This document shows positions 26,191 to 29,283 of a stretch of 64,000 bases of DNA, piece by piece. Source of the DNA: Microbacterium dextranolyticum (GTDB lineage: Bacteria > Actinomycetota > Actinomycetes > Actinomycetales > Microbacteriaceae); assembly GCF_016907295.1 (NCBI RefSeq), contig NZ_JAFBBR010000001.1, positions 1,426,001 through 1,490,000 of the forward strand, written 5' to 3'. The notes beneath the pieces were generated by a model, which was not told the origin of the DNA, did no database searches, and worked only from the letters and a program-made list of their open reading frames with translations. The stretch's first letter is position 1; the number at the start of each line of letters is the position of its first letter. A program made the translations under genes and the position numbers.

Positions 26191-26329
26191 GGGTCTCCTC
26201 GAGCGATATGTGCGGCACCGTGTGAGCGTGCCTGAGTGTGTGGGTGCCCAGAAGTCTACCCGCGCCGCGGCCCTGGGCGCGGCGGATGCCCCGCAGGGCG
26301 GACTGTGTCGTGGGGCGGGTGGTGCGGCG
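26191..26329. other. valS leader and intergenic DNA
   Basis: Holds the valS leader and its -10 element; otherwise I see no gene. The 319-base gap up to the DUF559 gene is completed by the palindromic element at 26330-26409 and about 100 bases without a recognised signal. Confidence 0.4.
26253..26258 (-). promoter_or_regulatory. -10 element TAGACT for valS
   Basis: Minus-strand TAGACT; the start would be near 26246 and the leader about 56 bases, with GGAG before the ATG. No convincing -35. Confidence 0.4.
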
Positions 26330-26409
26330 TCGGATGCCGAGGAGGTGGCGGATTCTGAGGGCGAGATCCCGGCATCGGCTCCTCAGATCGCGTCACTTCC
26401 TCGGCATCC
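26330..26409. repeat. palindromic element copy 1 (upstream of DUF559 gene)
   Basis: Imperfect palindrome with arms of about 30 bases and a 20-base loop. The left arm begins CGGATGCCGAGGAGGTGGCG; the right arm ends TTCCTCGGCATCCG. Its last 32 bases are shared, with a few changes, by copies 2 and 3. Confidence 0.75.
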
Positions 26410-26509
26410 GTCGCACATCGCCTCCTCCACAACAGTCTGTTCTCGGTTGTGGCTCACAGATGTGCCCGCGCCACAGAGCGCCGGGGCGCGTTCGGGCCAC
26501 AGTCGGGTG

Positions 26510-27334
26510 ATGGGCATCGAGCAAGATCTGCGGCGAGCGGGCGGGGTGATGCGCGTGCGTCAGCTGCGCGAGAGCGGTTGGAGTGAGCGCTCGGTGCGCA
26601 CGGCCGTGACGCACGAGCGACTGCTGCGCCCGCGCAAGGGCTGGGTGGCGCTTCCGGACGCGGATGCACACCTCGTCGCGGCCGCGCGAGCCGGCGTCGT
26701 GGTCTCGTGCGTCACTCAGGCCGAGCGCTGGGGGCTGTGGATGCTGCGACCGAGCGAGATCCCGCACGTGGCCGCCCCGCCGCGTTCCGGCGGGGTCCGG
26801 GCTCCCCGCGCGGTCGTGCACTGGGCGGAGCCGGTCGTGCCGCGGCATCCGGACGCCCTCGTCGACGAGATCGAGAACGTCCTGTCGCTCGTGGCGCATT
26901 GCTTGCCCTTCGAAGAGGCGCTGATCGTGTGGGAGTCCGCCCTCGACAAGAAGTTGGTGTCGCTGCCGGCGCTGCGTCGGCTGCCGTTCCGCGGGGCGGC
27001 GCGAGCCGTGTGCGAGCGCGCGAGTCCGTATTCCGGGTCCGGGCTGGAGACCCTCGTCGTCCCGCGCCTGCGATGGATGGGGATTCCGATCACCCCTCAG
27101 GCGTGGATCGCGGGGCACCGCGTCGACTTCCTCATCGGCGATCGACTGGTGCTGCAGATCGACGGCGGCACACACGTCGGTGCGCAGCGCACGAGCGACA
27201 TCGCGCACGATGCCGAGCTCATGCTGCTCGGCTACCACGTCATCCGCGTCGGCTACGCACAGATCGTCGACCGGTGGCACGAGGTGCAGGGCGTCATCAT
27301 GCGCGCCGTCGCCCAAGGGCTGCACCGGGCGTGA
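26510..27334 (+). CDS. DUF559/Vsr-like endonuclease-domain protein with AbiEi-type N-terminus
   Basis: Protein of 274 residues. The N-terminal 55 residues (LRRAGGVMRVRQLRESGWS...LLRPRKGWVAL) look like the winged-helix domain found in AbiEi-type antitoxins. The C-terminal 90 residues (about 185-270) are a DUF559 domain of the PD-(D/E)XK/Vsr fold: HRVDFLIGDRLVLQIDGGTH holds the likely catalytic Asp (about 204) and Asp (about 218), then the family's DAELMLLGYHVIRVGY. The biological role of these proteins is not established. It stands alone, flanked on both sides by copies of one palindrome. The ATG is taken; a GTG one codon earlier is possible. Confidence 0.85.
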   Translation: MGIEQDLRRAGGVMRVRQLRESGWSERSVRTAVTHERLLRPRKGWVALPDADAHLVAAARAGVVVSCVTQAERWGLWMLRPSEIPHVAAPPRSGGVRAPRAVVHWAEPVVPRHPDALVDEIENVLSLVAHCLPFEEALIVWESALDKKLVSLPALRRLPFRGAARAVCERASPYSGSGLETLVVPRLRWMGIPITPQAWIAGHRVDFLIGDRLVLQIDGGTHVGAQRTSDIAHDAELMLLGYHVIRVGYAQIVDRWHEVQGVIMRAVAQGLHRA

Positions 27335-27385
27335 GAAGCGCGCGGTATGTGCGTGGGGCGTGGCGCGGAGGGTGCCCGGGCGTCG

Positions 27386-27465
27386 CCGATCTCGAGGAGA
27401 TGACGCGTCGTGAGGAGCCTCAACCCACATTCCCTCCTCGGAACGCGTCATCTCCGCGGCATCCG
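27386..27465. repeat. palindromic element copy 2 (downstream of DUF559 gene)
   Basis: Begins 51 bases after the DUF559 stop. Arms contain GAGGAGATGACGCGTCGTGAG and a right arm ending TCTCCGCGGCATCCG. The right arm is part of the convergent GNAT coding sequence and supplies its last residues. Confidence 0.75.
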
Positions 27466-28052
27466 CCGCCCGCGTGCCCCGACTTGGACTGCCACGCGGT
27501 GCGCGAGATCGCGAAGGCGAGGTGAGGCATGTCGACACCGCGGTAGTGGGTGACGAAGGTGCGGCGGACGGTCATCCCGAGACGGATGGCGACGTTCATG
27601 GATGCCACGTTCGTCGAGCGCACCTTCGCGTAGACCTCGTCGGTGCCGAGCGTGCGGAACGCCCAGTCGCGACTGGCGGCGGCCGCTTCGACCGCGTAGC
27701 CGTTCCCCCAGTGATCGCGCCGGAACAGGTACCCGACTTCGATCGCCTCGTCATCGTCGATGCGCTGCCGTGTGATGCCGCACTGGCCGATCATCTGTCC
27801 GCTGGAGCGCAGCACGACGGCCCACATGCCGAATCCGTCGCGGCGATAGCTGTCCTGCATCCGGCGGAGCCAGGCGAGCGACTCGTCGTCCGAGAACGCG
27901 CCCTCGTAGGCGACCATCACCTCGGGATCGTGCAGGATCGCCCGGAGCGCGGGGAGGTCTGCGTCGGTCATCTCCCGCAGCGAGAGCCGGTGTGTCTCGA
28001 GAACGGCCGTGTCGGATGCGTCGCCCGGCTCGCCGGGGATGACGGGGGTCAC
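27420..28052 (-). CDS. GNAT-family N-acetyltransferase (RimJ/RimL-like)
   Basis: Acetyltransferase of 210 residues with the Acetyltransf_3 layout: TAVLETHRLSLREMTDADL at the start, acetyl-CoA loop RRDHWGNGYAVEAAAASRDWA, and NVASMNVAIRLGMTVRRTF near the end. Substrate unknown; relatives acetylate ribosomal proteins or small molecules. The GTG start overlaps the pentapeptide gene stop (GTGA). The last 17 or so residues (GGGCRGDDAFRGGNVG) are encoded by palindromic element copy 2, so the natural C-terminus may have been extended. Confidence 0.88.
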   Translation of the reverse strand: MTPVIPGEPGDASDTAVLETHRLSLREMTDADLPALRAILHDPEVMVAYEGAFSDDESLAWLRRMQDSYRRDGFGMWAVVLRSSGQMIGQCGITRQRIDDDEAIEVGYLFRRDHWGNGYAVEAAAASRDWAFRTLGTDEVYAKVRSTNVASMNVAIRLGMTVRRTFVTHYRGVDMPHLAFAISRTAWQSKSGHAGGGCRGDDAFRGGNVG

Positions 28053-28708
28053 TCCGCCACCCGGATGCCGAGAGCCTCGGCCCACGCGGCGGCGTGCCGC
28101 TCGAGCTGACCCGGTGAGAACCAGACCCCTGCGAGAGAGCGTGCGTCCGTGAACGCGAGCGCCTCGAGTCCGCGGAGGTCGAGATGTGTGGTGCGCAGTC
28201 CACGCGTGTCGACGTCGTCGGCGCGGCATCCCTCGAACGAGACCCGGTTCACACGCGCCTCGGGAAGGTCGATCGTGCCGAAGCGGCAGTCGACGAAGCG
28301 GACGTCCTCGATCTCGCCGGACGCGAGGGAGAGATAGTCGATGTGCACGCCGCGGAGCACGACGCTCTCCCACCGGGTGCGCAACCCGTCGATCGAGGCG
28401 ATCCGCCCGCCGGTGATCGCCACGTTCCGCCACCTGCCGTCGCGGGCACCCAGCGCGACGGCGCGCAGATCGTCGATCTCGACGTCGACGAGGCTCGCCC
28501 CGGTCACATCAAGCCGTCCGACGGATGCCGCAGCGATCCGCGCCTCCGCGAGACGGCCGTGCGAGGCATCCACATCGCCGCTCAATCCGATGACCTCGAC
28601 CGCGAGCAGGTCCGCCCGCGGCTCGAGTCCGACGTGCTCCTCGAGGTGATGCGGGATATCGGGCGTGCCGACCCGCGGTGCGGCGGGGAGAACGGGGCGA
28701 GCTGCCAT
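28049..28708 (-). CDS. pentapeptide-repeat protein
   Basis: Protein of 219 residues with degenerate A(D/N)LXX pentapeptide repeats from about residue 55 to 185 (ARIAAASVGRLDVTGASLVDVEIDDLRAV...RFVDCRFGTIDLPEARVNRVSFEGCRAD), which fold into a right-handed quadrilateral beta helix. Some relatives (Qnr/MfpA) mimic DNA and bind gyrase, but most have no known role; nothing here assigns one. First gene of a two-gene operon with the GNAT. Predicted leaderless. Confidence 0.85.
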   Translation of the reverse strand: MAARPVLPAAPRVGTPDIPHHLEEHVGLEPRADLLAVEVIGLSGDVDASHGRLAEARIAAASVGRLDVTGASLVDVEIDDLRAVALGARDGRWRNVAITGGRIASIDGLRTRWESVVLRGVHIDYLSLASGEIEDVRFVDCRFGTIDLPEARVNRVSFEGCRADDVDTRGLRTTHLDLRGLEALAFTDARSLAGVWFSPGQLERHAAAWAEALGIRVAE

Positions 28709-28714
28709 GTCCCG

Positions 28715-28720
28715 AGCCTA
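28715..28720 (-). promoter_or_regulatory. -10 element TAGGCT, leaderless start of pentapeptide/GNAT operon
   Basis: Minus-strand TAGGCT, exactly 6 bases, then the ATG at 28708. Confidence 0.6.
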
Positions 28721-28800
28721 GGTGCGCGTCGGACGAGGCCGGTGCGCCGGGGAGGGATGGAGTGCGTGCGAGAGTGCGTGCCTGCGCTGCGTGAGCGTGT

Positions 28801-28906
28801 GTCGGATGCTGAGGAGGTGTCGGATGCCGAGGAGGTGTCGGATGCTGAGGAGGTGTCGGATGCTGAGGAGGTGTCGGATGCTGAGGAGGTGTCGGATGCC
28901 GAGGAT
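28801..28906. repeat. 18-bp tandem array, about 6 copies
   Basis: Unit GTCGGATGCYGAGGAGGT repeated five times exactly in length plus a sixth shortened copy (28891-28906). The third-position pyrimidine varies C/T. The unit equals the left arm of the palindromic element, so this is an arm amplification within copy 3. Confidence 0.9.
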
Positions 28907-28956
28907 AGAAAACCGGGCGCGGCTCCTCGGATGGCGACATCTCCTCGGCATCCGTC
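28801..28956. repeat. palindromic element copy 3 with amplified left arm
   Basis: The tandem array serves as left arm; the right arm (about 28923-28956) ends CATCTCCTCGGCATCCG and matches the right arms of copies 1 and 2. Non-coding: it lies between the pentapeptide gene and the ileS T-box. Confidence 0.75.
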
Positions 28957-29059
28957 CATCTCGGGCGCGCCACGAGCCCCCCGCGCTCCTCGACCGCGCA
29001 CCTCCGGCGCACCCTGCCCGCGCGCTGGGCCACCCACCCCCAGCCGTCCACAGCCCCGG

Positions 29060-29065
29060 TATGAT
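29060..29065 (+). promoter_or_regulatory. -10 element TATGAT of the ileS T-box transcript
   Basis: TATGAT with a predicted start at A29072, right at the beginning of the conserved T-box leader. Confidence 0.55.
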
Positions 29066-29071
29066 GGGCTG

Positions 29072-29283
29072 ACCAGTATCGATCCGGCCATCACCGGGGA
29101 GCTCGCGGAAGAACGCCCCTCGGGGCCGGTAGAACCGCGCGGGGCAGGCCCGTCACAGCCGTTGCACGAGAGACCGGCCCGGATGCCCGGGGGCGGTAAG
29201 CGGGGTGGTACCGCGGTCGACGCGAAAGCGCAGATCGTCCTCGCAGGAAGCACTGCACACGCACGAGCCCCTGCTGGAGTGAC
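29072..29283 (+). ncRNA. ileS T-box leader (ultrashort stem I, translational type)
   Basis: tRNA-Ile-sensing leader RNA. A short hairpin CCGGCC-ATC-ACCGG carries the Ile codon ATC (29090-29092) as specifier; another ATC lies at 29078. The T-box sequence CGGGGTGGTACCGCG is at 29202-29215, where TGGT pairs with the acceptor end of uncharged tRNA. Ultrashort-stem ileS T-boxes of actinobacteria are known to control translation start rather than termination. That fits here, since no terminator precedes the ATG and the ribosome site GGAG (29276-29279) lies within the leader. Confidence 0.88.

Follow-up and report, generated by a model that had tools for sequence, protein, structure and literature searches.

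We examined a 64,000-nucleotide (nt) stretch of the Microbacterium dextranolyticum genome (NZ_JAFBBR010000001.1, positions 1,426,001 to 1,490,000; hereafter the window), in which a gene encoding a DUF559 nuclease of 274 amino acids (26510..27334, plus strand) lies between two members of a family of long imperfect palindromes. A first-pass annotation, made from the letters alone, had placed three palindromes here and suggested that, together with the nuclease, they might form a new system resembling repetitive extragenic palindromic (REP) elements. All three were found where it had put them. Palindrome A (26322..26416, no strand assigned), an imperfect inverted repeat of ~95 nt, precedes the nuclease gene and separates it from its divergent neighbor, named valS by its sequence, and palindrome B (27377..27471, no strand assigned) is its downstream partner. 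Within the narrower limits of that annotation (26330-26409 and 27386-27465) they stand 100 bases before and 51 bases after the gene, as it had stated. A GNAT gene and then a pentapeptide-repeat-like gene follow downstream, and palindrome C (28801..28956, no strand assigned) is a solo copy in the gap between the latter and ileS.

The three palindromes align over 95 columns with a mean column identity of 81% and have a common build: an outer stem containing GGATGCCGAGGAG or a near variant leads through a small internal loop to an inner stem, in which GAGG(AG) is repeated 18 bases further in and appears in mirror image on the opposite arm. Each arm of palindrome A thus holds the motif twice at 18-bp spacing. 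In palindrome C the left arm has expanded into an array of an 18-bp unit of the TGTCGGATGCTGAGGAGG type (28801..28905, plus strand). Predicted RNA folding was strong for the region of A (26322-26416, -66.1 kcal/mol, z -7.7), the region of B (27366-27485, -66.9 kcal/mol, z -4.8) and part of C (28866-28960, -57.9 kcal/mol, z -6.8), none of 200 shuffles folding as well in each case; the full palindrome C (28790-28965) gave -95.3 with z -7.5. An Rfam search of the palindromes returned only microRNA-precursor models, far under their cut-offs. Palindrome B contains the stop codon of a minus-strand open frame with a GNAT domain (27420-28433), and hence encodes the final residues of that frame.

The window protein matches PF04480 (DUF559) with 26.4 bits, above the cut-off of 20.6. 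Fold matches (Foldseek, VIA) to AbiEi, Vsr, I-Bth0305I and 3hrl divide it into an AbiEi-antitoxin-like part at residues 1-175, with the fold of 6y8q and an N-terminal winged helix, and a nuclease of the Vsr/I-Bth0305I type (DUF559, PD-(D/E)XK-type) at residues 174-271. The Vsr-like catalytic fold is present together with conserved acidic and His positions, a feature of EDxHD homing endonucleases. Judging by its sequence, the protein is under purifying selection (ratio of nonsynonymous to synonymous rates, dN/dS, 0.17-0.27 against three relatives) and its active-site-type residues are conserved. The NCBIfam search of the protein gave no match, and no transposase domain was found in the Pfam scans.

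The two parts of the protein invite a reading as a defense or addiction system, in which the nuclease would be inactive on the palindromes, or would use them as a mark of self, and would attack incoming DNA when freed. This is favored by the nuclease fold of one part and by PADLOC-DB, in which AbiEi is matched weakly by the N-terminal part (best E 4e-4). No other defense family was matched, and the neighbors at this locus, namely valS (by its sequence) and, from a Pfam scan of three proteins of the neighborhood, GNAT and the pentapeptide-repeat-like gene, include neither an AbiEii (DUF1814) toxin gene nor another known partner. We consider a defense role improbable.

We then turned from the window to the genus. 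The 13-mer TCCTCGGCATCCG, allowing up to 2 mismatches, has 35 sites in the window against 6.6 expected, most of them outside palindromes A, B and C. Because of these many matches elsewhere, a hairpin model built from the three palindromes is the better test, and it gave matches at E <= 0.01 in 75 of 149 genomes of the genus. Several of these were paired at a spacing of ~1.04-1.08 kb, and in five cases from other genomes the pair encloses a homolog of the window gene with 65-82% protein identity. The same palindrome-gene-palindrome layout is seen around DUF559 genes whose flanking palindromes are quite different. To quantify it, 320 bases on each side were scored for 90 DUF559 genes of the genus (the best locus of each of 30 genomes and 60 picked by hand, not at random, from the matches listed), and 30 glyoxalase genes (PF00903) from the same genus served as controls. 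The median of the best palindrome score was 16.6 in DUF559 flanks, 10.1 in control flanks and 10.0 in shuffled flanks, and the 95% control level was exceeded by 105 of 180 DUF559 flanks, compared with 3/60 control and 1/180 shuffled flanks. A palindrome above the threshold was present on both sides at 33 of the 90 loci and on one side at 39.

The stronger of the two tests compares the left flank with the right one and presupposes no palindrome. Left-right similarity averaged 33.1 within the same locus, 11.8 between different loci and 11.2 at glyoxalase genes (largest 16.5; n=90 and 30). In 64 of the 90 loci no other right flank among the 90 matched the left one better than the locus' own, and 2000 permutations gave means of at most 14.05. 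Loci from named public genomes (Microbacterium hominis, M. oleivorans, M. testaceum, Agromyces and others; 80 minus L326 and L330, which have a short flank), a set that overlaps the genus genomes and is therefore not independent of them, behaved alike (n=78; 34.2 vs. 12.0; own partner best in 46/78); L320 and L321, with a stop inside the aligned gene, were retained. The best of the 30 controls was exceeded at 76/90 genus loci and 59/78 named loci. Of 197 genomes from across the class, 27 have a homolog at the search threshold, and 21 of these lie outside Microbacterium. Twenty loci from other genera (21 found, with L384 dropped for a short flank) gave 24.9 vs. 11.3, with the own partner best in 14/20 and 11/20 above the 99% level of different loci. 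Where the left-right score was at least 25 (104 loci), the median distance from the end of the upstream repeat to the aligned gene start was 135 bases, and that from the aligned gene end to the beginning of the downstream repeat was 29 bases.

These comparisons bear on the possibility that we are dealing with ordinary terminators of transcription or with GC-rich hairpins formed by chance. The palindromes do fold strongly, and the window holds other hairpins above the same score. Yet palindrome A lies between divergent genes, where no transcript ends, control flanks and shuffles are mostly without such palindromes, and left and right copies can be up to 100% identical, as at L276, and unrelated in sequence to those of other loci. 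This explanation appears highly improbable.

In its own genome, a single contig of 3.18 Mb, the hairpin model gave 24 rows up to E 10 (both strands counted), with five places at E <= 0.002: A, B, C and those at 2946873 and 814948. The nuclease gene had been described as lone, but the genome holds 8 DUF559 genes. Beside the other seven the hairpin model found no palindrome of the A/B/C type, and two of the five places are without a DUF559 gene nearby. This search with the window palindrome alone was at first discouraging and proved misleading, as other DUF559 genes carry palindromes of different sequence. Five of them (L039, L040, L041, L044 and L045) have left-right scores of 24, 22, 28, 17 and 41, above the control maximum of 16.5, and their palindromes match left to right and differ from one another. 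The expected clustering of copies at DUF559 genes was therefore borne out across the genus and in other Actinomycetes, but not for the window type within its own genome, where it lies near only 1/8 of these genes because the others have palindromes of other sequence. Both remaining copies touch coding sequence. The one at 2946873 (L052, 1501-1595) shares bases with the part of an enoyl-CoA-hydratase-like frame that encodes the C-terminal tail, and the one at 814945-815039 (L055, 1501-1595) lies inside a coding linker of an ATPase-like gene (both named by eye), as does a copy of the palindrome in the same gene of another species (L358, genome G138); this linker varies in five further relatives.

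The palindromes of different loci carry different motifs (for example GAGGAG, GCGGGGATCTGCC, CTGAGGTTGCGC, TTGGGCGGAG, CAGGTCAACCG or GATCGTACTGACC) on a similar frame of ~60-95 nt. In 137 of 185 strong palindromes the best internal direct repeat was offset by 18 or 19 bases, as compared with 13/185 shuffled sequences and 5/60 best control palindromes; the 185 include overlaps, and taken apart the two sets gave 78/106 and 59/79. In the GAGGAG family, compared across 63 sites, 24 of the 27 pairs had changed on both sides, and symmetry has therefore been kept while the sequence drifted. Covariation amounted to 216 cells compared with at most 83 in 300 shuffles, a count of one strand per site that leans toward structure, since the alignment was fitted to the model structure and its sources are model matches. 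Copying between the arms could produce this result equally well as selection.

The layout and the hairpin form resemble REPs, and the palindromes could in principle be REPs moved by an ordinary REP-associated tyrosine transposase (RAYT) and lie beside DUF559 genes by accident. The RAYT-type transposase (Y1_Tnp, HuH tyrosine, PF01797) was absent from 12 of 12 genomes searched, and the same search finds that of E. coli; a different enzyme family is therefore involved, in agreement with the first-pass annotation, which had pointed to a REP-like layout with another enzyme. Moreover, the sequence of the palindromes follows the DUF559 locus, and GTAG within 12 nt of an end was found in 0/185 strong palindromes. 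We regard a RAYT origin as extremely improbable. The three window palindromes contain neither GTAG nor CTAC; all three contain CGTC, the tag of another palindrome superfamily.

Dispersal was examined with 23 query palindromes, 19 chosen from loci with a left-right match and 4 from the own genome, each searched against all 19 source genomes. Among the 150 matches listed, to which all the site counts below refer, there were 130 distinct palindrome sites, 110 of them in the home genome of the query. A listed DUF559 gene was found within 1.5 kb of 55 sites; of the 75 others, 61 were in the home genome. A profile of 23 proteins detected no homolog in 70 regions covering all 75 dispersed sites (one region ends at a contig end) and found 5/5 positive controls. 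Three palindrome pairs bracket other frames (L103, L105 and L106): a membrane-protein-like one in G113, a different one in G134, and a dnaE-like one in G085, where the pair is 2.7 kb apart. These frames gave no DUF559 match, and the pairs could be former nuclease sites or chance neighbors.

The nuclease gene sits at different places in different genomes, and a position upstream of valS recurs. At this site palindrome, gene and palindrome were found in G000, G081, G138, G080 and G018, the gene of G018 being broken and split over two frames. G037 has a palindrome and a gene fragment (residues 1-92), G046 a worn solo palindrome and what appear, read by eye, to be the first codons of the gene, and G056 and G085 a solo palindrome with no gene match seen within 1.5 kb; G048 and G082 have neither palindrome nor gene. 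Empty sites, which the first-pass annotation had proposed to look for in sister strains, do occur. Palindrome C is absent from the orthologous gap in 4/4 relatives (G081, G080, G138 and G018). In G138, the flanks of five solo palindromes were looked for in eight relatives; for one of these, which is bordered by a stop codon and a tRNA gene, both flanks were located, and ~140 bases including its surroundings are absent in 8/8, the ends carrying GCCTCCCGCCG and GCCTGCCCGCCG. A second lies within a coding linker that is variable among relatives. For one solo palindrome of G138 (L112), the right flank recurs in the own genome beside a DUF559 paralog (1375525-1376395); a site occupied by a solo copy in one species may therefore carry the gene block in another. 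Between palindrome C and ileS there is, in addition, a leader (29060-29260) that is strongly conserved in five species and looks T-box-like by eye, with Rfam silent at the gathering score.

A possible alternative is that the palindromes are operators: the AbiEi-like part would repress its own gene through inverted repeats in the promoter, in the manner of AbiEi and Rv2827c, the dispersed copies would be regulated sites or decoys, and nothing would move. However, a matching palindrome also lies on the downstream side of the gene, where no operator is needed, 75/130 sites have no DUF559 homolog near, and solo copies appear and vanish between relatives. We consider operators as the whole explanation unlikely, though deserving of attention; an operator role can also be compatible with movement of the palindromes by the nuclease.

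Sequence comparison thus allowed us to show that the palindromes are associated with both flanks of DUF559 genes, match left to right locus by locus, are specific in sequence to their locus, share the 18-19 bp build, are dispersed with a bias to the home genome, and are present or absent at orthologous sites. We therefore favor, as the probable reading, that the locus represents a single unit of a system widespread in Actinomycetes, composed of a stand-alone nuclease and its own cognate mobile palindromes, which would be a non-homologous analog of REP/RAYT. In this proposal the N-terminal AbiEi-like part would bind the mirrored motifs of its own palindrome, spaced 18-19 bp apart, and the nuclease would nick or cut at this palindrome or at its target, or beside either. 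The palindrome, and occasionally the whole palindrome-gene-palindrome block, would then be copied to a new site by repair or replication. In such a system the gene block would be the autonomous form of the palindromes, which by themselves would be non-autonomous elements, and the mechanism may well include autoregulation through palindrome A. Such nuclease-driven copying would explain why the gene is bracketed, why its left and right flanks match, and why dispersed copies and solo sites exist.

Several observations weigh against this proposal. Neither flank exceeded the palindrome threshold in 18/90 loci, and 14/90 genus and 19/78 named loci do not exceed the left-right maximum of the controls; the latter is also true of L046 (16.0) and L043 (10.5) in the own genome (control maximum 16.5), and in Agromyces the own flank match was not the best in 4/6 loci. 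Fourteen of the 75 dispersed sites match a palindrome from another genome, and the dispersed copies, at least 0 to at least 12 per genome and family (the latter in G109; lower bounds among the matches listed), are few beside the tens to over a thousand REP copies per genome given in the cited part of PMC3686654. A clean empty site was obtained for only one of the five G138 solo palindromes sought, and no clean target-site duplication was found: the sole candidate, formed by the two ends given above, has an indel, lies in GC-rich DNA and was not relied on. Finally, the expected link between the DNA-binding region and the palindrome sequence did not emerge clearly in the sequences compared, with palindrome-protein rank correlations of 0.17 for residues 11-60, 0.29 for residues 61-160 and 0.16 for the nuclease, duplicate loci and orthologous flanks included. 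The suggestion of a new REP-like system is supported by flank matching, locus-specific sequence, dispersal and empty sites, and from these we infer binding, cutting and movement of the palindromes by the nuclease.

REPs are widespread and linked to TnpA-REP/RAYT transposases, and their mode of spread is still open (PMC8266576, cited part). As described in the cited parts of two papers (PMC8266576; PMC3686654), a REPtron consists of an enzyme gene between palindromes, with dispersed copies of the same type and palindrome classes tied to the enzyme. By sequence, the present loci appear similar in that the enzyme gene is flanked by palindromes of a dispersed family whose class is tied to its own gene, as seen in the left-right match and the home bias. 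They differ in having a PD-(D/E)XK-type (Vsr/I-Bth0305I) nuclease with a winged helix instead of a HuH tyrosine transposase, several enzyme genes per genome, each with different palindromes, fewer copies (among the matches listed), no GTAG ends, and longer palindromes (~60-95 nt) with a motif repeated 18-19 bp apart in each arm. Because of the other enzyme family, the lack of a RAYT, the several enzyme genes, the missing GTAG and the other build, we consider the system an analog of the REPtron and not a member. TIRtrons, according to the cited part of PMC3733652, likewise have a gene decorated by its own inverted repeats, possibly a repeat family, but their enzyme is a tyrosine transposase and the repeats are non-REP.

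AbiEi and Rv2827c bind paired inverted repeats (PMC7319586, cited part). Residues 1-175 share the fold of AbiEi antitoxins of type IV toxin-antitoxin systems (6y8q), and the palindromes offer two mirrored copies of the motif per arm. Unlike AbiEi, this part is fused to a nuclease, no AbiEii toxin gene is adjacent at this locus, and the repeats are also found downstream and dispersed. Unlike the homing endonuclease I-Bth0305I and Vsr, the nuclease is encoded by a free-standing gene between valS and GNAT, with no intron or intein and with palindromes on either side. Compared with insertion sequences, repeats are present here, with one imperfect candidate duplication and no Pfam transposase domain. 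Rickettsial palindromic elements are found in coding linkers and between genes, as are the palindromes here; to our knowledge, no enzyme gene flanked by them has been described. Full-text searches, with most subscription journals outside their scope, found no paper joining DUF559 or AbiEi-nuclease genes to palindromes by title or abstract; two papers contain both DUF559 and a word for palindrome.

The pairing of this enzyme with this DNA element appears to be new, as no family known to us or found in the searches has both; by strategy alone it is a variant on the REP theme. On the broader scale, we see even chances that nuclease-driven palindromic mobile elements exist class-wide, acquiring new specificities gene by gene, with several orthogonal pairs per genome, and represent a second, independent invention of the REP strategy. 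If true, an unrelated second enzyme with its own palindromes would mean that the REP strategy evolved twice. It would also provide biochemistry with many enzyme-site pairs of differing specificity, point to a role for some of the DUF559 family, and explain numerous hairpins in Microbacterium and other Actinomycetes.

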